Source: Nymphaea colorata (Eukaryota > Streptophyta > Magnoliopsida > Nymphaeales > Nymphaeaceae). Taken from it: a stretch of 64,000 bases of DNA. The stretch lies in the NCBI RefSeq assembly GCF_008831285.2, contig NC_045138.2:2832143-2896142 (forward strand), read 5' to 3'. The position numbers and the translations under genes are program-made. Positions within the stretch are counted from its first letter, which is position 1, and every line of letters starts with the position of its first letter. The notes beneath the pieces were generated by a model. The model was not told the origin of the DNA. It saw nothing but the letters and a program-made list of their open reading frames with translations, and searched no databases. Of this stretch, positions 9,440 through 57,049 are shown one piece after another.

Positions 9440-9660
9440 GGCTACCAACTGCCCAGAGTGAGGTTCGAAAGCTACACCCATGCCCTTACATTCTGGGTTA
9501 TGGTTTGCATAGGAACCTAAGTAGATATCCTACATCATTTAGGTAGAGTGTTTCGATCTCACCTTTTGCGGTTTATGAGAGTAACGCCCATGAAGATCGA
9601 ACTCGTGATGCACTATTAACATGTCGGTTGTCCGACCATGCTAAACCCCTTTTGAGGCAA
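9440..9660 (-). mobile_element. tRNA-derived SINE-like sequence (copy A)
   Basis: On the minus strand TAGCATGGTCGG (9643-9632) resembles a pol III box A. GAGTTCGATC (9604-9595) resembles box B, at tRNA-like spacing. A second copy sits at about 57880-58110 inside segmental copy B. Only these two copies are seen, so the SINE call is an inference. Confidence 0.4.
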
Positions 9661-10784
9661 TTAATTGTTAGATTTTTTTTTTATAAAAATAATTAAGATA
9701 GCCACGAACTTTTATAAAATAGTTTCACGGTACTGAATAGACTTTATACACACAAACTTTGAAGTGGTTGGGTCATTGCCACTACTTTGTAACTCTTGGC
9801 TCTCATCAAACACAGGCTTTACATCCACTAACTCTGAAGTGGTCGGATCGTTGCTAACACTTTAGAGCCACAACTCAAGTATAGTAGGCGTTTGTTATAT
9901 ATCCTGTCAGTTTGCGTAGATCACTCTTAGGTAAATCATGGACAAGTTCTTGGAGTAGAATGAGTGATATTTGCACCAACAATAATGGTCGTGTGAACAA
10001 GATCACTTTTGTGATGGCATTGGTGTTGCTCAACACCTTATGTCCTGCATATGGAAAAAAACTCCGAATTATTATCAGCTGCGCTAAGAAGAAGCTTGGC
10101 ACTACGAGTCCAAATATCGAAACTATGTATAAGCTGCAAGCATTCAATCGCATCTCTTTTTTCCTGAAAAGAAATATTCTCAACTTCAATACAGTTATAT
10201 TGGTACTCAAGATTTCGCTCGTTCTCTACCAAATGCAGCGTATTAGGAGAGCATCACGAAGCGTAGATGGACCGTTGAAGTACGTAAAATGATGCAAAAA
10301 TTGATCTAATTGGTCGTTCTTCTTAGCCTGACCTGCAGATCTTTAGCCTGTAAAAAAAAAATAGTGACTTTTGTTTACCATTGCGCTTTTCCAAAAGTGT
10401 TTTGTCCAACTTTAATATAACAGTTTTTAATTGAAAAGTAGTTAAGTTTAGAACGGGGGCATTGTGTCCTGTGCCAATTTTTTGCCTCACACATTATTCA
10501 GCCATTAATTTCCACTCTTTTATTTAAATTGGTGTTCAACATCCGTCCGCTTATATAGCTGGTTTGATGGGAATCAGTGGGCCATGTGTCATTTGTTAAA
10601 ATTTTTTATTTAATTATTTCTATCCAATTTTCAGCTGAATGATATGCCAATCTATTGAGTCGGCAGCTCTCCGGGTTCATTTTCAAAGACTTTGGGTGGG
10701 CATCAGGCTAGAGTTCTAGGTCAACTCGGCGCCTGTTTGTTAGCATTAGGGTTCTTTCAAGTTTAATTGGGCTCTAGAGAGGGG

Positions 10785-10975
10785 TGAAATCAGAAATTTT
10801 TTATGACGAGAATTGAATTAAAATTTTTAAATTTTGAATAGGGTCAAAGTATCATTTTTTAAAATTTTTATAAAAAACAAGTGAAATTTTCTAACATTTA
10901 CATATAATTTTTTTTGAAAAAATTGAGAAGAAGCGAGAGCTCATGCTGGCTCTACCTTAGCTCTGCCTCTAATTC
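10785..10975 (+). mobile_element. GGGGCAGAGGCAG-family MITE, diverged
   Basis: The stretch from GAGGGGTGAAATCAGAAATTT to TAGCTCTGCCTCTAATTCA has the AT-rich core shared with 38205-38395 and 59798-59965. Short imperfect terminal inverted repeats are visible. It is non-coding. Confidence 0.5.
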
Positions 10976-11023
10976 AAGCCATTTTCAGTTGTATTTATAT
11001 CAAAAAGTAAAAATATATAATAA

Positions 11024-11062
<39 letters not shown>

Positions 11063-11451
11063 GCCCAACCAGGTTGAGTTCACTTCAGCCCAAACCCAGG
11101 GTCCGAAAGCTTGGCCAGTGACCTTATCTAAGACAGGAACCAGATAGGTTTCTACCTTAGGAATGGGGCCGTATCAGTTTTCTCAAAAATGTACATATGA
11201 GTTGGAAGTTTGGATTATATAAAAAGAGCCAACAAAAAGCCTACAGCTTCCAATGATTTGCTAATACAATAAAAGGAAAGAACAATTGTAATAGGATGAC
11301 GCTCGGGAGAATTTTCCCTACTTGTGAAAGTAATGTGATCTGACCCCGATATAAAACCTGGGCCATCTTCAAGAGCCATTTGCAAGTACATGACCACTTT
11401 AACAGCCATTTTCATGAACATGCGAAGAAGAAGAAGGAGATCCTCACCTCA

Positions 11452-11489
<38 letters not shown>

Positions 11490-11721
11490 ACGTGTGTGTG
11501 TTTCTAAAGCAAGCCACCAATCTCACCATTCCCCCATATATATATATATATATATATAGCTATTGTCCTCCTCCCAAGGGCATGTTCTTACCCTTTATTC
11601 ACACCCGTCCGCCACTGGAAACACCAGTTCCTGTCTGATTTGCATGTGTTAAGCATGCCGCCAGCGTTCATCCTGAGTTAGGATCAAACTATCCAATAAG
11701 ATTCATAGTTGCATTACTTAT

Positions 11722-11960
11722 AGCAGCCTAAACAGTGAAAACAGGGTTGTGGGAGAGCAATACAAGCGTCGTGTTGCTAGGCGAAGCGGTGAAGTACTGC
11801 ACCCTAGATGGCGAGAGTCCAGTAGCCGAAAGCATCACTGGCTTACGCTTTGACCCGAGTAACATGAGACCTGAGCAAGCACCACCTTGCAAGGCTAAAT
11901 ACTCATCGGTGACCGATAGCGAAGTAGTACCATGTGGGGAATGTGAAAAGAACCCTGGTT
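11722..11960 (+). pseudogene. Nuclear plastid-DNA insertion: 23S rRNA fragment (NUPT)
   Basis: The sequence follows plastid 23S rRNA: GCAGCCTAAAC.GTGAAAAC, then GTTGTGGGAGAGCAATACAA, CCCTAGATGGCGAGAGTCCA, GTAGCCGAAAGCATCACT, CTTGCAAGGCTAAATACTC and GACCGATAGCGAAGTAGTAC. It covers about 240 bp near the 5' third of the gene. Relative to plastid rRNA it has many substitutions and an internal deletion after the ACCCGAGTAACATG part, so it is an old non-functional nuclear copy. It lies between long AT tracts inside the insertion that is specific to segmental copy A. Confidence 0.88.
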
Positions 11961-11966
11961 GGGAAC

Positions 11967-12038
<72 letters not shown>
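11967..12038. repeat. (AT)n microsatellite
   Basis: An almost pure TA tract of about 70 bp directly follows the plastid rRNA fragment. Confidence 0.95.
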
Positions 12039-12043
<5 letters not shown>

Positions 12044-12161
12044 GCTAAAAATTAAATATATATTGGTTAAAGCTTCATAAAGACATAAACTGTCGTTAAA
12101 AACATGTATGACTGCTATGTATACCAGATCTTTCAATATATAATCATCTAATAAGATCTGT

Positions 12162-12162
<1 letters not shown>

Positions 12163-12257
<95 letters not shown>
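12163..12257. repeat. Compound (CT)n(AT)n microsatellite
   Basis: About 26 bp of CT are followed by about 68 bp of AT, the reverse-complement arrangement of the tracts at 2779 and 36896. Confidence 0.95.
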
Positions 12258-12260
<3 letters not shown>

Positions 12261-12920
12261 AATACCATATCACTTGGTTAAGGGAAAAAGTAGACCTTTT
12301 AAATTTAAGTTAAAGAAGTGTTTTTAACAAAATGTGAACCTTCTAATGTGCTTGTAAACCTAATTTAATATGAATCATTTAATTCAAATTAGTTTTATCA
12401 AAAAATACTATCAAAATTTGATGTCAGAAGAGCCCTTCATTTTTCAATTAATAAAAATCATTAACATCATAAAAAAATGATTACCTTAATAAATGTTCCT
12501 CGGTAAATCACTCTTAAAGACCATATATATAAGGTTAGGTTGTAAAAGTGATTAATTTTGATGGATCTGGTTTTTATCCCCTATCCAAATGGTTAAGTGA
12601 AACTGGTGGATCCTAGACTCTGAGGTCACGGATAAAACCAGACCCATTGAAGTATTATTTTAAATAAATTAAAAACATCTTAATGTATTTATAAAAACTA
12701 CTTTGATATAAAGCACGCCTTAGTTTGAGTTGTCTTTACAAAAGTGGCGAACTTCACATGATCAAATTTTTGATGCTATGTGAGCCTTCAAGTTCTTTTT
12801 ACGAAAAACACAACTAAACTAAAAAAATGATTGAGTTAATATATATTTTCCATCATATCATACCAGTAATGTTATATAAAAAAAATTATTTGTTGTATTT
12901 TTAAGCAGTCTGTTTTTATT

Positions 12921-12932
12921 CTCTCTCTCTCT

Positions 12933-13007
<75 letters not shown>
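12921..13007. repeat. Compound (CT)n(AT)n microsatellite
   Basis: CT units are followed by about 70 bp of AT. This tract marks the right junction of the insertion specific to copy A. In copy B the matching position (60441) has only about 20 bp of AT. Confidence 0.95.
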
Positions 13008-13009
<2 letters not shown>

Positions 13010-13824
13010 ACAAAAGACTCAATAAAAACATTAAAAGCAACGAAAATAAAAGAAAAAAAGTCTTGATGTTTTTATATTTCAAAACAAATTGTTCACTTTC
13101 TCATTTTTTACATTATTTTTTGCTTTAAAGTTTAAAACTTCAGTTAAGTTATTTATCCTTAGTTCTGTCATTACTAAAATATCATTTTTTATCATTTTAG
13201 CAAATTCCTGTTTATATTTTTTCTCGATAGTTCCTCATTTATTTTGTTTGGGGTCGTATTAAGCTCCTTCGTACTCATGCCGATCAGCAAGAAAATCAAG
13301 AACTTTAAGCCATGCTTTTGAGATTATAGCAAACATCGTAAGCCCATGAGAACTTTTTTTTTTTTTTTTAAAACGAACATAGACTGCAAAGTGAATTGGA
13401 TGTTTCCTTCATAAGCGCATTTTAGCGCTTGGGCCGAAAGCAAATGTCAATTCTCAAATGACTATCATAAAAGTTTATAAAACTCAAGAAAAAAGCTAAA
13501 AGAAAACCTTTTCCAAACCCGTCGCCTCATGTAAAAAGTCATGAATGACTTCAGCGTTCAGACCCAAAACATTGACAGCGCATTCAAGAGTATATTCATG
13601 TCAGACAACCCATAGCAATAAAAATGATAACATATTATGTCATACATAAATCCAAAAAATGAGGTACGTTCTCCTTAGGCAGGTTCATGGACGGGATACA
13701 TTTCATGAATCTTCTCGAGGACATGTAATAAAACAGTTTGTTACTATTCTTATTGTCAAAAATGACTCCTAAGTTCTTAGAAAATAGATTAAGAACTCGC
13801 TAATTCTCTTTGCTTATTGTAAAG

Positions 13825-23500
<9,676 letters not shown>

Positions 23501-23849
23501 CAGTCCATTGTGATTGGACTTGGAATAAGTTCTTGCAAAAATTAGTACATTTAAGAGTTCTCCAGTCAAAGAGCTTCCTCCACATTCTTTATGACCATAC
23601 TTGCATAAGATGGTGGACTTAACAACCCATTGTGATTGGACTTAGAATAAGTTCTTGCAAGAATTATTACATTTTAAGAGTTCTCCAGTGGCATATCCCT
23701 ATGAAAGGACATACTATCTCTTTTGTGCAAAATTTAAGTATTTTGAATAAATGGTTCATGGTTTTATTCATGAGAAAGGTCTCATCATGCGGAAATCCTT
23801 AGTTGAAAGTTGAAACTCATATTCTAAGGTTCTAGTTCCTCAAACCAAT

Positions 23850-24110
23850 GTTGTAAAAAGCATATCGTAAGCCGTATCGGTCTGACTTTAAGATATGTTG
23901 TATCGTAAAATATCGTATGTATCGTAACCATATCGTTTTTTTTTAATAAATCAGAAAAAATAAGAAAAACATTTGAAAAAATCATAAGAAATCAGTAAAA
24001 ATCAAGAATAAGCTCTCCTACATCCATGATTTTATCTCAAAAGTTTTTTTTTTATCTCAAAAAGATCAATAATCCAAGAAAAACAACTGCCCCCTCTTAA
24101 ACATGAGGAT
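23850..24110. mobile_element. TATCGTAT-rich repeat, second copy (inverse)
   Basis: It begins AACCAATGTTGTAAAAAGC, then ATATCGTAAGCCGTATCGG, followed by an AT-rich core like that of the GBA2 intron copy. Orientation is opposite to the first copy. Confidence 0.45.
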
Positions 24111-24189
24111 TAACGTAAAATTGTTAAAAATAGAAAAATAAATAAATACCCCTACAAAATTTTCACCTTGAGGGCTCCCACCATTCAAA

Positions 24190-27100
24190 ATTTTGAGGCT
24201 ATATATGGTAATTCAAATATTTTCTTTAAGAATTCTTCACACACAAAGTGATAGTCCATTTTGATATGCTTTATTCACTCATGAAAGGTGTGGCCTCGAA
24301 CAATGTAGATAAAATTTTTATCATCATGACACAACTTGGCTGGTGTCTCCATCTCATTTTCCATGTCACATGATAACTCAAAAAAACCAAACTATTTCTA
24401 TAGTTGTTGATGTCATTGCTCTATACTCTGCTTTGATAAAGGATAATAAAACTTTTTGTTGTTTTCTACACTTATATGAGATAAGGGATTCACTTAGAAA
24501 ACCACTAAAAGCTGTTGTTGAGTATTTGTCGTTGAGATCTTCTGCCTAATCAACATCAACATAAGCTATTAAATTCAATGGAAATGAAAAGGAAAGAAGA
24601 ACTCCCCGATTCATTGATCTTTTGATGTATCTTATTATCTTACAATCATATGTAAATGTTGTTGGAGAATGGTGAAATTGACTTACCACAACGTATCAAC
24701 ATATAATACAAGGATAATAAAACCTATAAAAGTGTTCTTAACAATAAGGGATGTATCTATCAAACAAGATTGAAAGCTGCATTAGTCATTAAAGTGGTCA
24801 AGCCATGCCTTTGGTGCTTCTTTAAGGCCATATAAAGTTTTTTGTAATATTAAGACTATCTTTTGGAATAATAATATGATGAAGATTATCTATGTAGACA
24901 TTTTCTAATTCACTATTCAAAAAGACATTCTTTACTTATATGTTCGGTTTTTAATAGCTGCAAAAGTTAGAGGAGTTCCAACAATGATCATTCTTGCTAT
25001 AAGGACAAATGTTTCTTCATAATCAATTTCATATTCTTGAATATTTCCCACAACAACAAACCTAACTTTATACCTTTCTAAGGTTCCATTACCCTTAATT
25101 TTAGTCTTGTAAACCCTTTTACACCCAATAGTTTTTTTTTATAGCAAAATCAATATTTGTCATGTATTAGCATCTTTCATTTCCCATGTATTGGCTTCCA
25201 TATTAGTAGATGGTTCAAACTAGGAATAGATGGCAGTCAAGCAAGTTCAATATCTATAAGTAAATGGCTCATAAGAAACAAATCTATTTGGAGGTCAACA
25301 TTTTTTGTAAATCTTTTAAAGGTTCATTCATTAGAAGAAGTAAAATCCTCTTTTTATTGGCAAGTTGCTTGTTTCAGTATAGGCTTCTTCTTGGGTTCTA
25401 TGGTAAATTATACGCCTATTAGATATCTTATCTTCATTGTCAGTGTCATTATTCTTTTCTTCATTTTCATCTCCACTCTCATATGAATCATCACAATGTT
25501 CTGAAAGATATTTAAATAAAAAGGAATAGGTGTTGACCTCTTGAAAATCTTTTTTTCTTTTGAATCCATGTTCTTTTTTAATGAAACTTACATTTTTTCA
25601 AATTGATAGTTTATCATTTTTAGAATCATTACATCTAGTTCCCTCAAGTGTCTTAGAATACTCCATAAAAGCACATTTAAAAACTTTTGAACTTAGTTTG
25701 CCAGCTTTATCATTTCCAGACAAAGGCTGCGTTGGTTAGGTCCTTTTTTTTTTTGTTAAAAACAAAATTGTGGTGTATTTATAGCAAAAATGGGTCCATG
25801 CATAACCTTATCTTACATTTACAGATTCATTAAAAAAAATCTCAATCTATTATTTAAATCATAACATTTACATCCACAATCTCTAAGTATCTCATTAATA
25901 TTTAGACAATTTTTCAAGGGGAGAAGCATTTGATAAAGTTTTTTATATTATTTTCTTTATGAGATAAGCGGACATCTAGCTGCCTCAACTCAAAATTTTT
26001 TATACACTTTTAAAAATAAGAAGAATGCTAGTTGTTTCTATAACGTGTCTATGCTTTCTCCTGGATAAACCTTTTTGTTGATGCTTCTTATAAAAAGGAC
26101 TTTGGTAAATTATTCCAAATAGTTTTAGATATTCTTCAAACTCATTTGAATTAAATTCACTTCTGGAATTTGTTCTAAATATTTTAATTTTGGTATCAAA
26201 TTGATTTTTCATTAGATTGTGAAATGTGTTAAATACCTTTAACTTGAATATCAAAATATAAATCCAATTGTACCTAGTAAAATCATCTATAAAAATTATA
26301 TAATATGATAATCATCATTTTGACATGATCGGTGGGATTCCTAAACATCCGAATGAAACAAGTTCAAAGGGTTTTAGCCATTAAAAATTTCTTAAACCAA
26401 AAGGTATAATTTTCATTTTCCCATTTAAAAGATCATTATACCAAAAGGTATTGATACATAGTTTCTTTGTAGAGTCAATAAGAGAAATTTTTTTTATGCT
26501 TAGATGTCATTCTCTTTGATGCCTTATTTTAGCACCTATGTTTTCGGCAACATCACAAAAGACTTTGTTGTGTATACATAATTTGTTCATGTAATACAAA
26601 TATCTTTTTCCAAAATTTTCTCCATTCAATTTCATGGATTGGTGTCCCTGCACATAACGTTTGTTCGATGAGAAAAGAATTTCATATCCATAGTCAGACA
26701 TTTGACAAACAAAAGTAATTTAAGACAATATTTCTACATAAAAATTTAGAATATAAACTTTTCATTTTTCAACTTCATTTTTGTGATCTCTAATTCTTAA
26801 AATGTTTAAAGAGGTTCAATTAGCAGTGAGAACATTTGAAATCCCTTAAACATATGCATACTTTGTCAAAGAGAAATATATGGAGTCATATGAATGAGAC
26901 TTTGTAAGTTAAGAACCAATAGTGCATACTTTTGTATTGGAATTGGAGGCAGATGATGCCATTGCACTTGATGGTGACTTGTTAAAAAGTGGTTGAAAGC
27001 CAGTTACAAGCTGATTTAAAGTGGAAGAAGTAGAAGTAACGTTGTGTCCTCCATTGAATCTCTTATTGTTCCCTTGATCAAGTTGACCTCCAATGTGATA

Positions 27101-41265: not shown

Positions 41266-41789
41266 GTAATTTTTTCGTTGCACAGATCAAACTATAGTTT
41301 CACAATTTTAAAAGGAGCTGTAATAAAAACTTTGAGAATATTTTTAAAATTTACATATAAATTTTTTAGTGTGCAAAGTGGTGGTTGTCGTTAGTATTCA
41401 GTTGAGGTCTGTCACTTAGGTAAAGACTGAAGAGGTTAATTGCAACAAGACTCTGTGATCACATGCACTGTTTACACATTGGTTATATTGCTTGGATATA
41501 CAATGAATCCAACCAATTTGAACTTGACTTGAACTTGTTTGTGTATGCTCAACTTGAGCTTAACTTGAACTTGCTTGAGTTATGAGTTATACAAGAGTCG
41601 AGTTTGAGTTCAAACTCGACTTGACTCGTGTCTTTCCTGTTTGTTAATCTTTGTTTGCCGATAATTTTTTTTTATATAAATTTTTAACACTCTTTCCATG
41701 GTTTCATTTTTATTAAAAAAAAGAATCAAGTAACACATGCTTAAATGAATTGAGCCAAACAATACAAAACCCAGCCAAACTCGAGTTGA

Positions 41790-42640
41790 ACTTAAGGCTG
41801 GGTGTAATACCCCAGAAGTTTAGTCCTGTATCGAAGATTGTGAGGGATTTTCAAGGGCTCATAAAGGGAAGCTTTAATGAGAAGATTGTCCTGATTACTA
41901 GCTTTTTTTTAGGATTGAAACCGAAATTGCTAGGGGGCGGGTTGGGATCCGCCGAAGTAGGAGCCCGAGCCCAGAAGTGGGTTGGGTTGTTATAGTGGTA
42001 TCAGAGCAGTTTCAACACTCGGACCTGGGGTCTCACACGCGCGGACGCGTGTACCTTAAGGGGGGTAGATTGTAATACCCCAAAAGTTTAGTCCTGTATT
42101 GAAGATTGGATTGTGAGGGATCTTCAAGGGCTCATAAAGGGAAGCTTTAATGAGAAGATTGTCCTGATTCCTAGCCTTTTTTTAGGATTGAAAACGAAAC
42201 TGTTAGGGGGCGGGTTGGGATCCGCCGAACCAGGGGCCCGAGCCCAGAAGTGAGTAAGGTTGTTATACTGGGTGTCAGATCAGGTACCTAGCCTGACTCG
42301 CGCCCGAAAAAAGGCATCGGGGCCGGCTCAGGTGGGCCTGACTAAGCCTTGTTTGACTCGATAATTTTTTTTAATATTAATTTCATTTATATATTTACAT
42401 ATATATATAATTATAATATTTTATTACAATTATTTATATTTATATAATATTTTACATAAAAAACACACTTTTAATTTTATCAAGCAAAGCTGAATTGGGT
42501 TCGAGCTTGGGGTTTGGGTGTCGAGCCAAGCCCGGGCCCGGATTTCGGGTGTTAGGCCAGGTCCAGGCCTGGGTTTTGGGTATTGGATGGACCCCAGCCC
42601 GACTCCTTATCGTGCTGCGCCGGACCGATTCCCAGGTCTA
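41790..42640. mobile_element. GGGCATCGGGC-family MITE interrupted by a TRIM
   Basis: Removing 41803-42267 and one target copy joins CTTAAGGCTGGG to TGTCAGATCAGG, giving a family-like left end. The right part has GGCCGGCTCAGGTGGGCC, an AT-rich core and GACCGATTCCCAGGTCTA. The TRIM is therefore younger than the MITE. Confidence 0.5.
41803..42267 (+). mobile_element. Complete TRIM retrotransposon (LTR 192/197 bp, 76-bp interior)
   Basis: The left LTR is 41803-41994 and the right LTR 42071-42267. Both start TGTAATACCCC and end TGTTATA. One base after the left LTR is TGGTATCAGAGC (41996-42007), the usual plant initiator tRNA-Met primer-binding site. The interior ends with a purine tract CTTAAGGGGGGTAGAT just before the right LTR. 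Five-base target duplications CTGGG flank it (41798-41802 and 42268-42272). It encodes nothing and must use enzymes from another element. The LTRs differ by several bases and a short indel, so the insertion is not very recent. Confidence 0.95.
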
Positions 42641-43398
42641 ACTGAACTCCAGCCGAGATCCGCTCACTCGTAACTTCCTGCATAATCTGCCCTTCACTTG
42701 ACTCGTATAAAAGAAAACAAATAAGTGTAGCTCGTAGCCGAAATATTTATGCCCTAAATTTCCCACTAGTTAACAGTTAAAGACGATTACTCAGAGTGTA
42801 GTTAAGATATGGACATGATCCACAAGCATCCAGTAAAATTTGAGTGCAGGAGGAGTATGGTGCGAGGGCGTCAAATGGTTTGGATTTTTCTTCCAACGAG
42901 TGACCCGAATCTTTATATTGGGGTATCACTAGGGATGTCCACCCTAAGATACAATCTAATGTTCTGATTCATATGCAGATTTAACTGGTTGGATTTCATA
43001 AGAAAATCAAAGGAAAACTATATGGAGGTTTGTTATCGTATTTCATACCCAATTGCGGTGGACACCTGAATCAGATTACATGGAAAATTTTGGATGATTA
43101 GTATTTGTATACCTAAATCTGAATAAGACTTCGTTACTAATAAACAATACCAAGTTACTCAATTATGCTCATGTTATCTGCGATCCAAATTTAATTAGTT
43201 AATGTCCCTAAGCAGTGATTCTATTTCTTTCTATCAGAAATTTTCTGACTTTTATTGTCAAAATAAAAAAGTTGTTAAATACAGCAAAGTCAGCCATGGT
43301 CCACTGTCGTGGCGAACAAGCGAGTGGCCCCCACCATTTGAGAGATAAAAGGGCACGAAGTTTTTCAGTAGATATTCACTCAGGCGCATGTTTGAGCC

Positions 43399-43401
<3 letters not shown>

Positions 43402-43442
<41 letters not shown>
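43402..43442. repeat. (GA)n microsatellite
   Basis: About 41 bp of GA precede a CT-rich stretch (43520-43600) that looks like a plant 5' UTR. No frame with a known domain follows. Confidence 0.95.
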
Positions 43443-43444
<2 letters not shown>

Positions 43445-45081
43445 CAATTCATCGTTGATCAAGAGAAAGAGAGGGAGAGAAGGAGGGCTCTGCTGGGCCT
43501 GGGGAGTTTGTGGACTTCATTTTTACGCTTCTTCTCTTCTCTTCTATTCTGCTGTTCGCAGCACTCAATTGCAGCTTTCTTCTTCTTGAGTTCTCCTTTC
43601 TTTTTCGATCACAAAGGGAACTCCACGGGCGAGGGATGAAGATATATTGGTTCCATCCAACGAGCTAGAGGTTGAGCATAAGGTCTATGATGGAGTTGAT
43701 ATCTGAATACAAGTGAAACTTTTGGGGATAATACAGATAAGATTGTCCATGACGTCATGTTAACAAGGTAAGGTGAAACTTGAATATAGTGTACATGAGG
43801 CTTTGGTACAATGTCTAAAGAGTAGTTATCGCAAATTATATAATGTATTCATTTGCTGATCTTTAGTTACTCCTTTTGGTTATTTATATGTTAGCTAGGT
43901 TTTCACTAGAATGTAAGAAACTACTTTTTTAATAGTCTAGTCACTAATCTAGGGTTACGACTACCACTGCAACAGACAGGCTTAAATTATTTAAGAGGAT
44001 GCCTTGTTCTTGTTCACCAGTATCCGTCTAATTATTTACATTTTTATGTGCATGGTAATGCCTAATGCTAATTCCTCACTCATTGTAAATTATCACATAT
44101 CTTAAAAGTTTCCTTTGATCGTGTGTTTCTAAGTATATTATTATTCAAAATGAACTGTCACATCCATAATATCCTAAAATATCATCAAACGGCATCTTTT
44201 GTGGATACAATTGTCTTTCAAAATCTCACATTTTCTCATAAATAATACATCATTTGAGGCAATATTTTCTTTTTGGCTTAATATAATTTTATTGAAAAAT
44301 ACAACCTAAAAAAGAAAGACATCTTCACCCCTAGGTGTAGTGAAAGAGATCGCAAGGATATATAGAGGCTCGAGTAATAGCTTTGACCAATCAAGAGAAT
44401 AGAGAGAGAGAGAGAGATACCTCATACTATTTTCTATAGTTTCTCTTCTTCTTCTTTTATATAAATGCTTCTTCTGTTGTTCTTTCATGTCTCTCTTCTT
44501 CAAAACTAATTCATTATCAACTCTCTTTCATCATGTTTTTTGTTCCTTTAGGTTGTGTTTGATCGGAGGATATTAAAAGACATGTTTTTAGAGATCTTCA
44601 GTTTAAAACTGAGGATCTTAATAGCATGAATTTCAAATTCATGCTACATGTTAAAAACCATGAATTTAAGATCGAATTTGTGGGAAGATGTCCGATCTTA
44701 AATCCATGAATTTGAGATATTTGAGTTTTCATATCACCATGGATCTTAGATCTACGTTGAACCAAACACGACCTAAAAGGAAAAAAAACAAGATCCATGC
44801 TACATGTTTTAGTCTTACGCGTTCAATTTTGCACTTATGGTCTCAAGAATGCACTCTCCCTTTAGTCTTGTTTTTTTTTTCTTGATCGATTTCAGGTTTG
44901 CACTTATTGGTATTCTTCATCTTCTTTTCTTCCTCCTTTATGAACTTCAATAACAAGTGTTGAAATCAGCAACACGATCAAGCAACCAAAACAAGAAACC
45001 TTTCATTCTTCGTCAATTTCGCAGCTTTTTTTTCAATCGTGTTCATGTCCTCGTAATTGCTGTTGTTTGTAGCTAAGAGCT

Positions 45082-45115
45082 GTAGGTTCAGGTGGTTCAC
45101 TCACCTTGAACCTAC
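45082..45115. other. Short inverted repeat
   Basis: GTAGGTTCAGGTG and CACCTTGAACCTAC form a 13-14 bp stem with one bulge and a short loop. It lies about 140 bp left of the long foldback. Confidence 0.55.
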
Positions 45116-45253
45116 GCTTAACAGGAGGCCCTTTTCAGAGGAGGGGGAAGAAAGCGTTCTTAACGCCGGCCTCCGCAAGGAGATCAAAGACGGGTTTCCT
45201 GTGTTGCCGCAGCAGATGGCGGCAGCTTCTTCGGCATTTCCGGCATCGGAGAT

Positions 45254-45389
45254 CACTGGAAAATCCATGGGCAAAATCCCTCGTAACTTTCTTAGTTTGA
45301 GTGTTGAGGAATGCAGTTATGGAGTGACAACATTCCTCAACACTCAAACTAAGAAAGTTACGAGGGATTTTGCCATGGATTTTCCGGTG
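45254..45389. ncRNA. Long near-perfect foldback; candidate hairpin small-RNA locus
   Basis: The left arm (45254-45313) and right arm (45331-45389) are about 59-60 bp and pair with one bulged G and one mismatch or G-U. The loop is 17 bp. Inner arm sequence is GTTTGAGTGTTGAGGAATG. Arm length and loop fit a plant miRNA or hairpin-siRNA precursor, and near-identity of the arms fits a young inverted duplication. I do not recognise a known miRNA in it, and the transcribed strand is unknown. It could equally be a foldback transposon remnant. Confidence 0.45.
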
Positions 45390-45630
45390 AGTAGCTATGG
45401 GGAGTCTGCAGAAGTTCGGGGTTATCAACAGCCAAAGCGAGGAAACAGAGACAGAGGAGTCCTGCACCATGCACAAGAATGTTGGGTTCATAGACTTTCT
45501 TGGACCAAGTAAAAACATGTAATTCGCAATTGTCCTCTATGCTAAGGAACTTTGTGGGACTCGATAAAATTCTCACTCCACAATAATTGGAATAACCCGA
45601 GAAATAAAATTATGTGAGTGAACAGACAGT

Positions 45631-45631
45631 A

Positions 45632-45681
<50 letters not shown>
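45631..45681. repeat. Compound (CT)n(AT)n microsatellite
   Basis: About 26 bp of CT are followed by about 25 bp of AT. This tract lies immediately beyond the AP2/ERF fragment and marks where it is cut off. Confidence 0.95.
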
Positions 45682-45698
45682 GTTCATGATAACATTCA

Positions 45699-45866
45699 AG
45701 GTCTTCTGGCAGGGTCGTGGGCCGCCGCGGCCATTTCCGGCGTCTCGAAGCTTCCGAGCCAGATTCGCGACTTCTTTCCCGGCTCCCGGATCTCTGACAT
45801 CCACTTCCCCCGCCGGACGCCCCGGTTGTTCGCCCCTGACGAGCAGTCTCCCTCTCCGTCGTCGCC
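45699..45866 (-). pseudogene. AP2/ERF domain fragment fused to the NCRK tail
   Basis: On the minus strand the frame reads [16 protein letters not shown], then [22 protein letters not shown] (core 45824-45714). This is the DNA-contacting beta-sheet and the start of the helix of a plant AP2/ERF (DREB/TINY-like) domain, a class of transcription factors. Two or three residues are missing between RGVRR and GKW, and the rest of the helix is lost; the frame stops soon after HDPARRP. The segment is much more GC-rich than the kinase next to it. It runs in frame from the kinase tail ([15 protein letters not shown]), so a chimeric polypeptide is conceivable but improbable given the upstream lesions. Confidence 0.75.
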
Positions 45867-45869
45867 CCG

Positions 45870-48800
45870 ATGCAAATTGCTTTCCCAAAACTTCTCGAGC
45901 CGAGGCTCCATCAGGTCCACTGATGAGGCTTCTTCCTCATCAACTCCGGGATTTGGAGGTTAGGAGTGCCAATTGGCTAACGTGCCCCAAAGATGGGACC
46001 TCAGACCTGCTCCCCTGTTTCGTTGTAAATTGACGCATGTCAAGCTCCAACGGTGGACAGCGCAACCCTGTCCATTGGTGTGAAGCCCCATGAACCTCTG
46101 CATTAACTCCGGAGACGGAGGAGTCAAGAATGACTTGTGATTCCTGTTTCTCTCTTCTTCCGGAATCAGAACCATATCCACGAAATTCCTTGTCAGTCCA
46201 AGAACCCTACAATGTAAACAACAAAATGAAAAAGCATGATCATCAAGATGGAAACTGCTACAAAATGACCAAACTCATTTAGCCAGAAAAGATGCTCCAC
46301 AATGGGCATTTCTCAAAAGATTGTCGGCAAAAGAAATGGTGGAGCTAAGACTGTTGACAAAAGCTAGAGAGGCTGAACAAGATGCTAAACTTTGCATTTT
46401 CGTAACAAATCAGCATCTTGATCAGAATATAACAGGCAATTTCAGTAAACCAAGCATCAGCAAATAGACCATCATCAAACTGCCGATTAAGTAAAACCGT
46501 ATAAGAAAATGTTTCTAGTTTTAGTAGATAGCGCCCTGTCCTGCAGCTTATGTTCTAGAAGAAGCATTTAAAGTATGTAGTACATGCGTTTAAAGAATGC
46601 AAATAAAATGAAATATTTTGGAAATCTATGCAATTTGCAGAAGGATCAAGGGCGCTTAGTTTGTATATAAAGGATAAGGAGGCTTAGTCTGTTCAGAAAA
46701 CAGACCAAGCAAGCCTAATTTTTAGGAAAATGGAATGAGAGGCTTAATTTGTAGAAAAAATAAACCAAGGAGGCTTTATTGGTAGAGAAAAGGTATAAAG
46801 AGGCATAATCTGTAGGAAAATGACTAAAGATGCTGAAGTGGCTAAATCTTGGACAAGAAGAATGCTTCCTAATGAACAATACTGAAAGTTACCTGCATGA
46901 ACTGTAGTGAAAATTTTCTCGTTCTCTTATCAGGAGTAATGGTAGAGAGGATCTGGACAACTTCAGCCATTGTAGGTCTTAGATCTGGATCAAAGTTGAG
47001 ACATTCTCGTGCCAACTGAGACATCACAAGTACTTCCACTTCTGGAAATTGTCCTTTAAGCAGAGGGTCAGTTAGCGCCTTTACCACATGTTTGCTGTCC
47101 TTCAGTAAAGATAACGCCTGTAACACAAGGCCAAGAAATTTTTCAACTTAATCATTGTAAACTGTTTGAATAAACACTACGAAAACTCATAATTGAGGCA
47201 ATCATGCCATGGAAAATGGGAGAACTAAGGCTGGACCCCCTGGCCAGCACCTGGATCTCTTCAAGCTTGTTAAAAGCCAAAGCAATGCAATATTAGAATA
47301 AGTTTCCATAGTATCAATCGCATCATTTTATGTAGGAGTCCTAGCCTATCAGCTGAAGTGCCAAACAATCATACTGGAGTGGAGTTGAGCTGGAATGGGA
47401 ATGCATGTCAACAGCATCTTCTCCAGTATTTAGTTGAAATTGGCACATCTTCACTCCCATCATCACTCTTATCAACCAACTCTGCTGCATCCAAACAACC
47501 AAGGATACAGGTTGTTTGGACAATAGCCACCAAATATCATTAATTCTTCGTTTTAACTTTTCTTTTGAATACCCAGAGAGAACTTAGAATCGGTGATAAA
47601 ACAAAAAACAACCTAAACAGACCAGGCTTACAAGAGTAGCATCCCTGGTCCCTTTTATTGAAGAAGTTGCGCAGGTATAAATGGCACAGAAGCATGTAGA
47701 GGTTGCGATTTAAGCTCAATGACCCACAAATGTTCAGAGCTCCCAAAATAAGGAATGTTTGTTATGTAGAAAACACTTGGACCAAATCATGCTCAAAGTA
47801 AACAGAGATACATGAAATATAGGTGTTGTTGAAACCATCAGAATATTATGAGGTATCCAACGAAGCATCAGGTTGCTGCAGGAACTTAGTGAAAAAATAA
47901 GACCATTTTGTAGCTTACCCACATCACGTGTAACAAGCCGACCCACTCCCGGGCTCAGGCCCTTGGTTCGACGGATCCCAACCCGCCCTCTAGAAGTTTT
48001 GGCTCCAACTTGAAAAAGGCTAGTAACCAAGACAATCTTCTCATCAATGACCATATTTATAAACCCTTGAAGATTCCTCACAATACGGGACTAAACTTCT
48101 GGGGTGTTACAATCTACCCCCCTTAAGGCACACGCGTCCGCACTTGTGGGACCCTAGGTCTGAGTGTTGAACCGGCTCTGATACCACTGTAACAAGCCGA
48201 CCCACTCCCGAGCTCGGGCTGCTGGTTCGGCGGATCCCAACCTGCCCCCTAGTAGTTTTGGCTTCAACCTGAAAAAGGCTAGGAACCAGGACAATCTTCT
48301 CATCAATGACTCCCTTTATAAACCCTTGAAGATTCCTCACAATCTTCGATACGGGACTAAACTTCTGGGGTGTTACAATCTACCCCCTTAAGGCACACGC
48401 GTCCGCACGTGTGGGACCCTAGGTCTGAGTGTTGAACCGGATCTGATACCACTGTAACAAGCCGACCCACTCCCGGGCTCGGGCTCCTGGTTCGGCGGAT
48501 CCCAACCGCCCCCTAGTAGTTTCGGCTCCAACCTGAAAAAGGCTAGGAACCAGGACAATCTTCTCATCAATGACCTCCAATCGAAGATTCCTCACAATCT
48601 TCGATACGGGACTAAACTTCTGGGGTGTTACATCACGAGGCTCTCTTGACCCTTCTTGGCTGACAGAGTAATTGGTGGGCGACCACTTATTAACTCAAGG
48701 AGAACAACACCAAAACTGAAAACATCTGATTTTAGTGATGCTCTACCAGTGATTGCATACTCTGGAGCAAAATATCCAAAAGTCCCAAGCATCCGAGCTG

Positions 48801-51800
48801 GAGAACTAGGACAGCTGGGTTGATCATCATTAGCAATTCGTGTAGCCATCCCAAGATCACTTATCTGACAAGACCATATCAAATAAAAATTTCCTAAGAC
48901 CAACAATGGAATATGCACCCATACATTTGAAGAGAGAAAAATGGCATTCACTTAACATTCATGTGCATACAAGGAGACAGATTGTATGAGACAGACAAAA
49001 CACACACACATACCCATCAACACATATACACATGGATAAAACACTAATTGAAGAAACCTGGAAAATACCAATCATCAGGTTCTTGCCATCACAGAAGAGA
49101 TGCCTTTATTTCTCTCATGACAAAAAAGTGAAAAACGTTAGGAATCCAGTTGTATGATAGGTCATTGCACTAAGTCATGCAGCAGCAAAGTAGTATGAAA
49201 ACTCAAGGGGAATGTCTTTCCTCTTATTGAAGAAGCCAAGGCATGTTTCATAGATTCTACATTTCTTTTTAAGATGAAACCTAAAACAGATGGAAATACT
49301 CATAATTAGAATACTAATCTCATATTCTAGCATATATCTCCGCAAGGACGTTAAAATCATTTTCTGCCTGCTAATCAAATTCAATGATTCAAATGATATT
49401 ATATACATGTTTCCATGTGAATTTTTCATGATGGTGAAATTTTTTTTATGATTAGGAAATAGTTGCAACATGCTGGATGAAAATCCTGAGTTTGTCTTGT
49501 CTCCAAAATAACATAAAGTACTTGTCAAGAGGACCATGTGCATGTGACCCCTTGTGAAACCAGAAAGCAATTACTAGCGTCTTTGAGTCACATGAGCCAA
49601 ACTGTTAATTATAAAATAATTATTCAGTTGGATCTAAGCACCCCAAATAAACCATCAGTCAGGAAATGCATGAATTTCATAGGGATCTTCCTTTTCAACT
49701 TTTCTTTTGGGTTGTTGTTTCATGAACTTGTTGACCATTTTAGCATGGGCAACACACTGAACCACAGCATATAACTTGCAGTTGAGGTTTCACAAGTTAC
49801 AACACTAGCCTTGAGTGCCTTTCTAATTTGCCATTAAATAATCATTATAGACACCCTGTTCTTTATTCTTGAATCTTTATCATGCATTTACCAGAATACC
49901 CATGAGAAATAACAAATACCTGGCAAAGCAGTTGCTAGCGTATAAAAAATCAGATCGTCTCACATAAGCACTAATCAAAATTGGCAATATCCACATGGCG
50001 CTTCAAGTCCTTAGCACGAAGTTGACCACAGTGCCACTTAGATAAACATAAGCATCAAAATTGCCACCAAAAAGAATTTGATTACCTTGGACCTCCAATT
50101 GCTGTCCAGAAGAAGAACGTTGCTGGATTTGACATCTCTATGTAGGATCGTAGGAGCAGCAGCTTCATGGGGATACTCCAATCCTTTTGCAGCCCCAATT
50201 GCAATACCAACACGTGTGGCCCAATCTAGTGGTTCCTTCTGTTTTGCATCTCAATGGCACCGAAGATTACCATTTGGCATGTACTCAAATATTTGAAGAC
50301 GTTCACAATATTTCCCTTGAGAAACAGAACAGTAACCAAGCAAAGGCACAATATTGAAGTGGTTCAGTCTTGCTATCATCTCAACCTGAGAAAATAAAGA
50401 TCAGTCACTTCACAACTTTTAGAAGAATAAGATTTAAGTAGATGTGGTACAAGGTCTGCAGACTTCTTGGAAAAATTAGTTAAAATCACAACCTTTAGAT
50501 CTACAAAATCTATAAATGTTAACTTCTTCCATCATCCAAAAACCTGATTTAGTTTCTTTAGATCAGTCAATCAAAAGGCTACAACGTAAGCCAACCAATT
50601 CTTACGAATCATGACTAGCTGCTGGCCTGTTTCTCACATTTAGCAAGTTGGAGATGTTTGTCTACTCAAAAGAAGCCATGCAGCCCACGTATGTCAAAGG
50701 CCTGTTTCTCTAAGCAATCACATTGTGACATTGCACAGGACAGGGCAGGGCTTGCCATCTGATTCTAATACCTTGGCAATATAAAGCAGCTGGTTTATTC
50801 ATATTTTCAAATATAAATTAATGAAAAAATAAAAAATCCCATTCCTACTTTTCAGGACAGTATGCCTGACTGGTCAGATATCATTCTCATCCTTGTAATG
50901 CAACATAAACACACAAATCTTTCCTTAAATTCCAGCGATACTTTTTATGTTCATTTAAAAAGCAAGAAAAGTCCAGTCATCAAAGCAAAAGCAAATGCCT
51001 CTGGTAGACCAACCTCAGTAAGAAATTCAATATCAGCATCTGAACCTTTTTGAACTTCCAATCTCTTAACAGCAATATCTCTCCCATCCTTCAGTTGTCC
51101 ATAATAGACATTGCAACTTTCACCAATGCCGACAAGGTTTGAAAACTTGTTGGTCGCACGATCCAGCTCTGCATAAGTGATTGCCAGGAATCCGGTCTTT
51201 TTTCACCGTGCGCATGTAATGTTTCATCCATAACCATCCTGTGGACCCAAAGGTAAACTGTTAAAGATCCATCAATATGTGCAAAGTTAAAAAAGAACTG
51301 CACACATCAATGATAGTCCTTCCACATTAAAGATAAAAATATACATTTATAGGTTCCTGAAAGCACGACAAATATTATGGCCACAAGAGAGAAATGGCCT
51401 GCTAAGGACAAGCTACTCAAGCATACATATACATGCACAAAGGCCTGCAAGCATACACTGTGTGAAACATCAAAACATCCAACAAACATATGACAATTGA
51501 CAGCATTGACCACCTTGATTTCAGGAAAGTAAGCACATAGACTCATTTTCATTGAAATGGCAATTAAGTGATTAATGCGTATTAGTACAAACCAAAGTGT
51601 AGACCACAATAAGATGGTGAAACAATCTCAAGAAAAGCATTTTTCTGAATCAATACTTGACTAATAACATTTATCAAGAAATTGTGGAAAAGAAAAACAT
51701 AAAATGATGGTTCCAAAGGTTTCTGCAAAATCGCTAGTCCGGTTCAAGCATTGTCACAACTATCACTTTCAGGTATTAAGGGGTGAGATTTTTCTATAAA

Positions 51801-52601
51801 ACAGCAGAGTTGTTTTTCTCGGGAACAGATAAAGAAAATCTCGGCAGGTTTTAAAAAATTTAAAAAGGAAAAATCCTAAAAATAACATGTGAAAATAAAA
51901 ATCTGGTAATTAAAAATATAAAAAATGCAAAAAAAAGGAATAAATAAATAAATGTGAAAAAAAAACGTGTTTTTCGCTTTTTTCATTTTTGCATTAAAAA
52001 ATACATTTTTTCTGCTTTTTCAGCTATAAGTTTTTAATGCTCTTTTGCATTTTTTTTGGAATAAAACACATCTTCCGTGACAATGTTCGAAAGAAACAAC
52101 GCATCTCTTCCCACAATAAATCTAATAACACTTTGGACACATATCACGATGTTGAAAGAAAAATATTGCTGCTCAAGACTGTAATAAATCTGAAAAAAGG
52201 AGGTTAAATCATGACAAATGCAAGAGTACACCACAAAATAATATGCATAACTAACAAAAAAAATACTAATATAAAATAAAAATTAAGATGGTCTACATCT
52301 TGATGTTTGTTTTTTCAGTTACCTTTTGTTAAGTTGAAATAGGACTGCTTTTTTGCCCGGGATTCTTTTAGTGAAGTTGGTCTGTGGCTTATTAGGTTGC
52401 TAGAACTGTTAACACTTGCTTCACTTCCCACTGAAAATATCAATGACTGTACAGGAAATATTTCCTTTCTAGATAAACAGCAAATGATAGACGCAAGCAA
52501 TACTATGGTTGTAAGTAGGATGCATGCTAAGAGAGTATATACAACTGCTTTGCTGGAAATTTGCTTTGACGATGATTCTGACTTGCCAGGTTCTGCAGCT
52601 C
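45870..52601 (-). pseudogene. NCRK: NCRK-like receptor serine/threonine kinase pseudogene
   Basis: Minus-strand exons: 52601-52323 (membrane segment VVYTLLACILLTTIVLLASI and juxtamembrane SSSNLISHR), 51238-51014 (GIGESCNVYYG loop, AVKRL lysine), 50385-50086 ([17 protein letters not shown]), 48864-47919 ([34 protein letters not shown]), 47117-46893 (ARECLNFDPDLRPTMAEVV) and 46206 to about 45870 (tail, [12 protein letters not shown]). DLG in place of DFG is normal for NCRK. Lesions are: a frameshift between DRIPG and ITYAEL in the second exon; an in-frame TGA just after PNGNLR; an extra Leu in the NVLLLD stretch; a TRIM insertion in the DLGMA exon giving an immediate stop; and a shift before the VDLMEPR tail. 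The cysteine-rich ectodomain and signal peptide exons were not found upstream. In intact plants NCRK is a membrane kinase of the RLCK/RLK group. Confidence 0.88.
47929..48632 (-). mobile_element. Tandem TRIM: three LTRs and two interiors, inside a kinase exon
   Basis: LTRs are at 47929-48111, 48188-48377 and 48453-48632. Each is bounded by TGTAACA and TGTTACA. Interiors of 76 and 75 bp lie between them, each with the tRNA-Met primer site (reverse complement GCTCTGATACCA on the plus strand) and the CTACCCCCCTTAAG purine tract complement. The whole array has one pair of 5-bp target duplications, TCACG (47924-47928 and 48633-48637). The family is the same as at 41803. Sense strand equals that of the kinase gene. 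LTRs differ by small deletions. Confidence 0.95.
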
Positions 52602-54120
52602 CTGACAACAAAAAAACAGGATCAATAGTAATTTATTAGAGAAACTAAAAGATTAAGCAAGCTCAAAATCAAGATCCATGCAACAGTAAGATGTATGAAC
52701 ATGTTAAGCAAAAAAGGTAGATAAGAACCTGCAATGGGAAACTGATAAAAGATAGGAAGGGAAGGCAATCAGCAAAGGCAATTTTTTTAGTGTAGCTATG
52801 CAACCATATTTACAAGCAAACAATATATTGCCCGTAGCTTATTTTCCCCTTAAGATCCTGAACAGTTGCATGTTCTTACACAATTCAGCATAGCATAGTA
52901 TTTTACATGCCAATTTGGGAAAATAATAGTGTCTAGTGTTATACATTTAGTGTCATGTATACGTGTGGTGCCTAATATCAGTGTAGAGGCACACAAGAAT
53001 AAACACTCCAAAAATCATACGCAACTGTTCATCTCAAATAAGATTAAGGTCATAAAAACTGCGAATATGAAGCATCTACATAACATATTATGGCAATGAA
53101 ATGCCAGCTAATCCCAAAATGAAAAACAAAAAAAGAGAAAGAAATTTGATGATTGAAATCAACTGCATGATATCCATATCTAACACAAGTTTCACTAAGA
53201 TGAAGTGATCACGTATCTAGTGTTGCATAACACAGCCCTGCAGAGTAACTAATAATCCTGAATTCAGAACCCGTTTGCCTATAAAGGAAAGACAAACCAA
53301 AAGATGATTTTTCAACCAGCATAAAGATAAAGAGATTGCTTACCTAAGACATTAGACCACATATATGTTCTCAACCATAAAAACATACAACACCATAACC
53401 TACTCTCCAAAATTCCACTCCCCGATTAGAAAAATCAAAGTTTCCAACTATTGCTGGTGGATTGTATAAAAGAATGCAAGCTTAAGGTTTTGATCTTAGA
53501 TGATATACCAATTTTTCACTGTAAAAAAAGTGCTTGTATTAAGGGGAACTTTCTGGCAATAATCTTAATTTTGTATCATTTGACCACAACATCAGATTAT
53601 TGGTGCAAAGAAAATGTTCATTGGGCTATAACATGCCATTTTGAGCCTCTTATACAAGCTACAGGGTCATGAATGCCTTTTTGGCTCGTGACTCATAATT
53701 AATAAACAATCAGCATGGAACAAACCAGGAAACAAATGGAAACGGAACAAATAGAATCGCGAACATCTTTGAGAAATTAAGACTACCAACACTTAGCATG
53801 ACATTAAGTTATAAAATTTTGTAAGACGACCTTTTTTTCTTTTTCTAATTCCAGAATTTCTTAATGGCATGTTAGAAGTAACAGTCTTTCAGTTTTCTTT
53901 AACTCCATAAGTTTTCTATGTCCTCCTTGACAGAACTTTTCCTTGCCAAAATGAATAGATATTTCATAAAGAAGTGACCTGAATGTATTAGGTACAGGAC
54001 ATGCAATCAAGGGTTGAAAATGACTGGACAGTGACGGAAAGTGAAGGAGACATGGACAGGTTATGTTGTGCAAGACTTCTACATAGTTTAAGAAACACAT
54101 GCTTAAGAAAGAGGAAGGTT

Positions 54121-54600
54121 CATGTCCCCACACCCAAGCTTTTCGAGAATGTTTCACACTGGTGTCTACATCTGCACTCATGCCCACATCCATGTGACAT
54201 AAGCTCTTACATATTTCTTAAAAAAACTAGTTATATGTACTACTTCATATGAAATAAGGTATTAAAGAATAATCTTTTAGCACTTCATCAACACAGTTGT
54301 CTGACTGCCCAATATATACTAACCTTATGTGTCAGGGGATAGAAGCAACAGAAATATTCACCAAAATATAAGCAACAGAAGACACTGAGTGGACACATAT
54401 GTGTCACCTTGAAGACCAATTTCAAGCCCAAAGGAACAAGGTGGATATTACCGCTTATCCAAAGACCGTGTGCTCGATTAAAGGACAAAAATTGGATATG
54501 ATCGGGTCACAAGGAGTCAGGGAGCATCCAAATCATATTATTCTTTGGCTGCTCAAATTACTTGACCACAAGAATATGGAAGCCTGTCATTCATTCTTTG
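54121..54600 (+). repeat. 480-bp dispersed repeat, copy 2
   Basis: It is colinear with 1294-1773 without indels and differs at about seven positions. It lies upstream of the NCRK-like pseudogene. Between 52.7 and 54.1 kb I see no further exon. Confidence 0.85.
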
Positions 54601-55281: not shown

Positions 55282-56050
55282 TTACACTTGCTTGCAACAA
55301 TAATTCTGGTAATCTTTCAACAAATTATAGTATTCTTCAAGATTGTATGACATATTCCTTCTAGTCCTAGTAGTTGCAATCGTCGAAATTTCAGTGGTAG
55401 GAGTTGGAGGTGGAGGACTATCTTCATGAAGCATTTGTGTAAAGGATTGTGAAGTTTCAGGATTCATGTACATTGGAGTGGATTGAGATGCTGGTGTATG
55501 CGGTATTGGTTCAGCGTCCTCATGTATCAAGCTGTTTAATGTGTCTGACTCCAGTGGCATGAGAATCACCAAAGACCTCGACAAACTAGTCAAAGTATCT
55601 CCATAACTTGGGACCTCTGTACTTTTTCTTATTCGGATATTTTTGAAAAATTTCATGTGTTAAATAAACATGTAGTGAAGGTAAGTCAGACATATAACCT
55701 AATAGTAACATCTCGATAACATACTTCAATGTAGTCACTCCATACTTAGGGATTGACTTCAATACATTTGTTGATTGAGTCATACCCAAACTCTTTGTAT
55801 TCATAATTTCTTTCATGATTGTTAGGTTGAGTTTTGAGTACTTCAACTTGTTTTTAATTTTGTCTTTACTGAAATCTGGACTGAATCTTTCCATCATACT
55901 TTTTTCAATCGCTGTATATGCTTTAGACTTTAAACCTCTACCAGATTTCATACCCGGAATGCGTGATTGCTCCACAAGAAGTTGCACTAAATAGTCCATT
56001 TGTGTTTCAGTCCATGTCAGATTCTCCCTTGATGGACCGCTGTCGTCCAT
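55282..56050 (-). pseudogene. Myb/SANT-like DNA-binding protein remnant (PIF/Harbinger type)
   Basis: The minus-strand frame starts MDDSGPSRENLTWTETQMDY at 56050. It continues LVEQSRIPG, SKAYTAIEKSMMERF and FSKDKIKNKLKYSK, the pattern of the plant Myb/SANT-like domain often carried by Harbinger-class transposons and derived host genes. After KYRGPKLWRYFD there is an in-frame TAG. FVEVFGDSHATG continues beyond it, and then a frameshift leads into a Pro/Thr-rich region and an NLEEYYNLLKDY end (to 55282). One stop and one shift make it non-functional. No transposase ORF or TIR was identified around it, so it may be a transposon relic or a dead domesticated gene. Confidence 0.75.
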
Positions 56051-57049
56051 GCCAATGTTTTGGATAATATTTCTTCACTACTAGATATTTGAGTTGAAAC
56101 AATCTTGCATAACAGGGATTAGGGAAAGATCAATATTACAACAAACAGAAATTAACGCGCATCCATGACGGCGACATGCCCAAGAACATGTATACATCAG
56201 CCAGCGATCACATGAACTAAAGAAGCATATGAACAAGCAATCACATCCGACAAAACAAGCCAACAACACTTAAATTCATTGCTACTAGTTACCATTTGAG
56301 TAGTGACATAGCCATTTCACAGCTTCTATACAATTGTAACCAAACACTCCAGAAGCAAGTCTGACATTTTATATGGAACATGATGTCTAGCATGATTACT
56401 TATCCCATGAAAACCAATGCAATGGATTAGAATAATTAGACTAATCAGAACTTAGAAAAAGCCAATTGAATATGATTCAAAATACAAGGGACTTGCCCAT
56501 GTAAACAGAGACAAGAATAACTGTCCATTCCTGCATCTTAAGCACCTAATATGTACTTGATGGACACAACATTCACCTCTGTGAGGATTGCTTTTCCCTC
56601 TCTGCGTCAAACTTCCTTTGATCAAGATCCTTAAAAAGTCGCAAACCATGAAGGCCCTCTCTCTCGCCCTATCAACAGACTCCCCCTTGTAGAATGCAAT
56701 CTGTTAGATTCGTGGTGTGTTATTTATGAGCAAGTATCACCAATTAGCCACCCACAAAATTTTGTTAACCAATTAGTGGGTGAATTAATTGAGGGCTAAT
56801 GCTTGGTCAACTTTATATCCACCTAAGTTGTGTATGTTCGTGTAAACATTGGTCATGGAGACGGTGGATGTTATGCTTCGTATTTACTTTTACTCTCCAT
56901 TGGTCATGGCGCTCGTGAAATATTTTAGGAAAAACCAAGGAATGATAAAGAGGAAAAGGAAAATAAAGATCACCCGCATGTGATGGAGCTTTTGTGAGAA
57001 CGACGTGCATATAGATATATATATATAGGTTGCTTATCATGCTTTCATT

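Follow-up and report, generated by a model that had tools for sequence, protein, structure and literature searches.

Tandem arrays of terminal-repeat retrotransposons in miniature (TRIMs) have been described in plants, and here we analyse one such array in a 64,000-nucleotide stretch of Nymphaea colorata contig NC_045138.2 (C1; positions 2,832,143 to 2,896,142 of the forward strand, referred to as the window), where it interrupts an exon of a gene copy that, by domain order, is a putative relative of NCRK (novel Cys-rich receptor kinase). Three-copy arrays with respect to the long terminal repeats (LTRs) are already known and common in plants (PMC4717578). Gao et al. (2016) reported arrays in 129 TRIM subfamilies and in 35 of 43 genomes, with the form of three LTRs and two interiors (L3I2) accounting for 63 of the 93 tandemly arrayed TRIMs (TA-TRIMs) of maize, and a mean of 2.7% of a genome's TRIMs recruited as exons (PMC4717578). 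For the maize TRIM Wukong, three LTRs were reported in eight of 89 intact elements and multi-LTR copies were attributed to recombination (PMC4528315); for arrays of the Cassandra TRIM, recombination and template switching have both been proposed (PMC7215508). In rice, the abstract of a study on tandem LTR-retrotransposons prefers a single insertion over the joining of two elements, and its discussion leaves the choice between a complex insertion and later recombination open (PMC11899658).

The window array resembles the L3I2 TA-TRIMs in its three LTRs, two interiors and single 5-bp target duplication (PMC4717578), Wukong in being a small non-coding element with multi-LTR copies (PMC4528315), Cassandra in its tandem LTR-interior arrangement (PMC7215508), and the rice elements in that tandem copies share an LTR under one target duplication (PMC11899658). 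It differs from the TA-TRIMs as reported (PMC4717578) in belonging to another family and in that its host is multiply broken while the same genome also provides a natural empty site, and from Wukong (PMC4528315) in that the pattern of outer and middle LTRs in its family indicates two routes of array formation. Unlike Cassandra, whose LTRs have 5S rRNA-like sequence (PMC7215508), neither window TRIM contains an Rfam match at E up to 1, 5S-like or other (the check over 41600-48900 gave four matches, none of them 5S), and the family would thus fall outside Cassandra. Whereas the rice work is a pangenome study of LTR retrotransposons generally (PMC11899658), ours follows one tiny family in one genome, LTR by LTR.

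Our overall interpretation, which we consider very probable, is that the TRIM entered an exon of the NCRK-like copy on C1 after this copy and its paralogue on C12 had parted, that the array most likely grew in place, and that the copy is now a pseudogene. The empty-site control within the genome makes this a clean example of a tiny non-coding retroelement inside an exon. It also advises caution, as the conspicuous insertion is accompanied by other lesions and the copy is redundant. How tandem LTR arrays arise, a question left open in the rice discussion (PMC11899658), can be tested simply by comparing outer with middle LTRs, and the two-route pattern is in our view what most deserves further study.

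The array and its target site

The components of the array and of its target site are the following:

47929-48632, minus strand: tandem TRIM array, L3I2 (three LTRs and two interiors), 704 bp
48453-48632, minus strand: left (5') LTR, 180 bp
48378-48452, minus strand: interior 1, 75 bp
48188-48377, minus strand: middle LTR, 190 bp
48112-48187, minus strand: interior 2, 76 bp
47929-48111, minus strand: right (3') LTR, 183 bp
47924-47928: TCACG target-site duplication, copy on the side of the donor site
48633-48637: TCACG target-site duplication, copy on the side of the exon
48628-48630, minus strand: TAA formed by the LTR start, right behind a Met codon

The array is head-to-tail with a period of about 259-265 bases, its sense strand is the minus strand, as for the host gene, and on that strand it starts with TGTAACACCCC and ends with TTGTTACA. 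All of its parts run in one direction under one target duplication, as in L3I2 TA-TRIMs, and as in TRIMs generally the LTRs are short and direct, with TG..CA ends and a 5-bp target duplication. This bears out the initial annotation, which had described three LTRs and two interiors under one target duplication, in gene sense. The TCACG copies at the two array edges are identical (5/5); the plus strand of the whole 64-kb window contains this motif 24 times.

A TATAAA stretch is absent from the left LTR and present in the middle and right ones. In interior 1, the primer-binding-like TGGTATCAGATCC adjoins the LTR and a purine run lies ahead of the next LTR; interior 2 contains TGGTATCAGAGCC and AAGGGGGG. 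Both interiors start with GTGGTATCAGA(G/T)CC, which would be the complement of the plant initiator tRNA-Met, and both end with a purine run followed by TAGAT. The array thus has the two sites found in TRIMs, a primer-binding TGGTATCAGA(G/T)CC by the left LTR and AAGGGGG(G) before the right one, and other copies of the family have similar interiors with primer-binding-like and purine-run features. The array is small and would be non-coding, the longest stop-to-stop frame overlapping it (118 aa) extending past its borders; it presumably was mobilised by the enzymes of another element.

The exon reads ...QESLVM and then, as had been proposed, directly TAA (48630-48628). The insertion thereby sets a stop within the exon and shifts the donor site 709 bases away, a change visible in the sequence. 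The distance to the exon end needs correction: instead of nine bases, five (TGTGG, 47919-47923) separate the insert from it, or ten if the copied target is included.

An empty site in the C12 paralogue

The genome of N. colorata, searched over 407.8 Mb in 783 contigs, has a sole close relative of the host gene, on C12, with three matches at 80, 88 and 91% amino-acid identity among the best 103 of 1971 candidates; the other receptor-kinase matches among these 103 reach at most 45%. The DNA likeness between C1 and C12 runs from window position 54123 to 45870 in three pieces (89.5, 93.0 and 93.4%) and is broken at the TRIM, giving a homologous block of about 7.6 kb on the C12 side; besides the TRIM, smaller indels disrupt it, of which the longest measures about 84 bases. 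At the corresponding C12 site there is a single target copy and no insert, and the frame reads on to M-W and the GTAAGC donor, exactly the continuation predicted for the C1 exon with the insert and one TCACG copy removed. The C12 comparison thus shows the TRIM insertion directly. The empty site that was to be sought in relatives is therefore found within the same genome, and the possibility that the exon of relatives already ends before this point is answered by the C12 frame, which runs through it. Because LTR elements are not known to be excised cleanly, the TRIM would have reached C1 after the two copies parted, barring an old polymorphism that was sorted between them.

The C12 copy has exons A-E (listed below for C1) all open and Cys-rich open stretches upstream. 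The nearer of these stretches runs up to a GTAAGG that by eye resembles a donor site, some 50 bp ahead of the start of likeness to the window. Exon A differs at 2/279 bases and exon D at 2/227 between C1 and C12. As window positions 19-4961 are also collinear with C12, the duplication exceeds the gene.

Two further repeat structures were observed. An inverted, hairpin-like repeat at 45253-45390 (a 140-base self-reverse alignment at 90%; 64/138 ungapped) lies about 480 bases from the edge of C1/C12 homology at 45870, and the microRNA-type Rfam matches within it are below threshold and likely due to chance. Distinct from the C1/C12 duplication is a collinear tandem segmental duplication on C1, in which 8983-24686 corresponds to 57506-81712 (ending beyond the window), with pieces 75-95% alike.

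The host copy is a multiply broken duplicate

The host gene copy on C1 comprises the following features:

52323-52601, minus strand: exon A, membrane-spanning segment (by eye) and juxtamembrane part, one open frame
51014-51238, minus strand: exon B, start of the kinase domain, all three frames closed
50086-50385, minus strand: exon C, kinase, with an in-frame TGA at 50253-50251
47919-48864, minus strand: exon D with the TRIM insert; the donor GTAAGC starts at 47918
46893-47117, minus strand: exon E, kinase subdomains X-XI, open frame
54118-54123, no strand: edge of the C12 likeness

All five exons retain AG and GT borders. The exon pieces C and D match the Pfam protein kinase model, with no Pfam match for pieces A, B and E taken singly. 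From exon B onward, the joined read can be aligned with plant receptor kinases of solved structure; the best of them, 5xd6 (5.4e-62), likewise has Trp-Ala at the place of the insertion. A kinase domain of receptor-kinase type is thus present in the C1 copy.

The domain order reported for NCRK is signal peptide, Cys-rich domain, membrane span and kinase (PMC9893415). A DNA search of the genome with the Cys-rich ectodomain stretch C12:15883900-15885480 found C12 only (one match, one candidate) and nothing for C1; this is a stronger test than a Cys-motif scan for ectodomain exons up to 81.9 kb (the window plus 17.9 kb), which gave five weak hits, none convincing. In this assembly the window copy therefore lacks the Cys-rich ectodomain before the membrane span, and the locus is a truncated relative, not a full member. 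The C12 likeness stops some 50 bp before the last Cys-rich exon of C12 is reached, and the 483 bp at this edge (54118-54600) match window positions 1291-1773 at 98.3% and also a C12 place at 95%, so that a rearrangement cut the C1 gene here. In addition, exon B is 17 bases shorter in C1 than in C12, and no reading frame passes through it. Besides the insertion, the C1 copy has thus lost its 5' exons and the frames of exons B and C.

Since the closure of exon B, the TGA of exon C and the loss of the ectodomain all lie upstream of the TRIM, translation would stop before the TRIM's TAA. The claim that the TRIM ends the kinase accordingly holds in part, in that the stop follows the Met codon and the exon for subdomains X-XI lies beyond it, while the upstream lesions would end translation earlier. 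That the TRIM broke a working receptor kinase does not follow, given a C1 copy without ectodomain exons and with exons B and C disrupted, all upstream. The C1 copy is a pseudogene, a multiply broken duplicate in which the TRIM is one lesion among several.

Could the locus still yield a useful product if splicing removed the TRIM or used it as an exon end? The AG/GT borders kept on five exons, the donor-like sites within the LTRs and the small differences of exons A and D between the copies would agree with this. Yet exon B has no open frame, exon C has its TGA, ectodomain exons are missing, and the best donor-like site of the TRIM scores 1.99 against 2.81 for the normal donor (scores to be read as a ranking only). 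We therefore regard a useful product as highly improbable.

The TRIM family in the genome

The window contains a second member of the family:

41803-42267, plus strand: ordinary two-LTR TRIM with target duplication CTGGG

This member measures 465 bp, compared with 704 bp for the array, has TG..TA ends, and its LTRs differ at 14/192 sites; across the two window members, LTRs span 180-197 bp and interiors 75-76 bp. Searching the genome with the array gave 43 matches, from the best 40 of 1239 first-look candidates scored, and the TRIM is thus a dispersed multi-copy element and not a local repeat. Of these 43 matches, 18 (the window's own included) cover 690 or more of the query's 704 bases, and three-LTR copies are thus no rarity in this family. 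Scans of prokaryote and viral contigs with the LTR pattern gave 0 and 0 matches.

Some copies show additional structure. At C3:26775242-26779517, five TRIM matches of equal score are spaced by exactly 958 bases, and the TRIM piece seems to have been absorbed into a longer tandem repeat. The locus L022 (C7:13170030-13171095) is a cluster of four LTRs, one of them opposite in direction, and within L003 (C10:18738048-18741760) the array L010 lies between two copies, 97% alike, of a 293-base direct repeat.

Two proposed routes to three-LTR arrays

Reverse transcription renders the outer LTRs of a new insertion identical, and unequal crossing-over produces a middle LTR in which the 5' part of the right LTR is joined to the 3' part of the left one. 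We compared 15 complete three-LTR arrays, 14 from 20 retrieved stretches plus the window array, a small sample picked by likeness to the three-LTR query. Excluded were L017 (first LTR truncated), L019, L020 and L022 (four LTR matches), and L027 and L028 (two LTRs); L010 was retained despite its damaged right end and flanking 293-base direct repeat. The target duplications are 5/5 in eight of the 15 arrays, and partial or absent by the called ends in the rest.

By Kimura two-parameter (K2P) distance, the outer pair is the closest in 9/15 arrays, and the left-right distance is the largest in 3/15. Seven of the 15 combine a bootstrap of at least 0.87 for the outer pair being closest with one of at least 0.89 for a middle LTR that lies nearer to some other copy. 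The counts of shared-derived states (outer/left-middle/middle-right) for these seven are 2/0/1 in L009, 2/0/0 in L011, 6/0/0 in L012, 4/2/1 in L014, 7/2/1 in L018, 9/5/0 in L023 and 6/1/1 in L026. The outer LTRs of L009 and L011 share states missing from the middle one. Over the whole array, L011 shares 97% identity with L009 and likewise with L010, yet the flanking sequences of these loci show no match to one another, which fits transposition as a unit.

That every array had transposed as a unit was considered and rejected, because left and middle LTRs are closest in L010, L013, L016, L024 and the window array (counts 1/0/0, 0/1/0, 0/4/3, 0/6/0 and 0/1/1), and middle and right in L021 (3/2/1); L015 (1/1/1) and L025 (1/3/2) are undecided. 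In L016, the middle LTR equals the right one at nearly all variable columns up to 66 (one exception) and then mostly equals the left one, except at columns 94 and 104 and where the alignment has gaps, a pattern that crossing-over predicts.

In the window array, the left and middle LTRs differ at 9/180 sites and the two interiors at 2/75, versus 16/173 for left and right (Fisher p 0.044 for 11/255 against 16/173). The left-middle pair is closest in 0.99 of 500 bootstraps, with a K2P of 0.05. Among the 13 variable columns without gaps in the LTR's 3' part, the middle copy agrees with the left one at 9 and with the right one at 1. An initial two-LTR insertion would thus have become a three-LTR array in place, probably by unequal crossing-over between its left and right LTRs. 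Alternatively, a three-LTR transcript could have been reverse transcribed and the finished unit inserted whole, as the single target duplication around the array and the seven arrays with closest outer pairs and middle LTRs nearer to another copy would allow; we consider this unlikely for the window array, whose outer pair is more different (0.094) than the left-middle pair (0.046) and is the smallest distance in 0.01 of bootstraps.

The origin of the three-LTR arrays of the family hence looks two-fold, with unit transposition in 7/15 and crossing-over in the window array and at least one other. On balance we lean, by a narrow preference, towards a model in which some arrays transpose whole, the inner LTR keeping its own lineage and the outer ones being equalised each time, and others, including that of the window, arise in place by unequal crossing-over, the closest LTR pair telling the routes apart.

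Timing and order of the lesions

The outer LTRs of the window array differ at 16/173 sites (95% interval 0.054-0.146), the C1/C12 non-coding DNA at 362/6133 (0.053-0.065), their synonymous sites at 10/294, and the edge patch at the 5' truncation at 8/483 (0.007-0.032). The divergence of the LTRs implies an old insertion, not a fresh one. Its difference from the non-coding DNA has p 0.07 and would point to an older TRIM; within error, the TRIM and the duplication are of about the same age. The 5' truncation may be younger than the TRIM; a TRIM that preceded it would fit, since the edge patch looks younger.

That the TRIM hit a working gene as the first lesion, with the other damage following later, is a serious possibility although it falls short of an even chance: divergence is similar for the outer LTRs and for the gene copies, and the truncation patch looks younger, but LTRs are imprecise clocks, and the 8/483 may have been lowered by gene conversion. 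To the TRIM having landed in an already dead copy, without effect on the plant, we give nearly an even chance; three upstream lesions and a C12 sister copy with exons A-E open speak for it, and the early insertion suggested by the LTR divergence speaks against it.

Purifying selection on the C1 exons, suggested by the near-identity of exons A and D, was not retained: the ratio of nonsynonymous to synonymous change (dN/dS) is 0.46, with a wide interval (0.21-1.24) that does not decide the matter.

Several observations weigh against our overall interpretation, that a TRIM entered the exon with a 5-bp target duplication after C1 and C12 had separated and would then have grown in place. The outer-LTR divergence (0.093) is nominally higher than that of the C1/C12 non-coding DNA (0.059), which is odd for an insertion after the duplication; possible reasons are faster change in LTRs or an insertion polymorphism that preceded the duplication. 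Fewer differences are present in exons A and D than would be expected of a long-dead copy. The growth in place rests on few sites, with one strict shared-derived state for left-middle and one for middle-right, and most of the signal in the window array is private change in its right LTR.

Other open frames in the window

Away from the array, a 321-aa open frame at 21091-22056 (plus strand) matches the catalytic region of glycosyl-hydrolase family 116 (PF04685, 4.1e-106), and an open frame at 55586-56074 (minus strand) has a Myb/SANT-like DNA-binding domain (PF12776, 1.1e-07) and is possibly transposon-derived.

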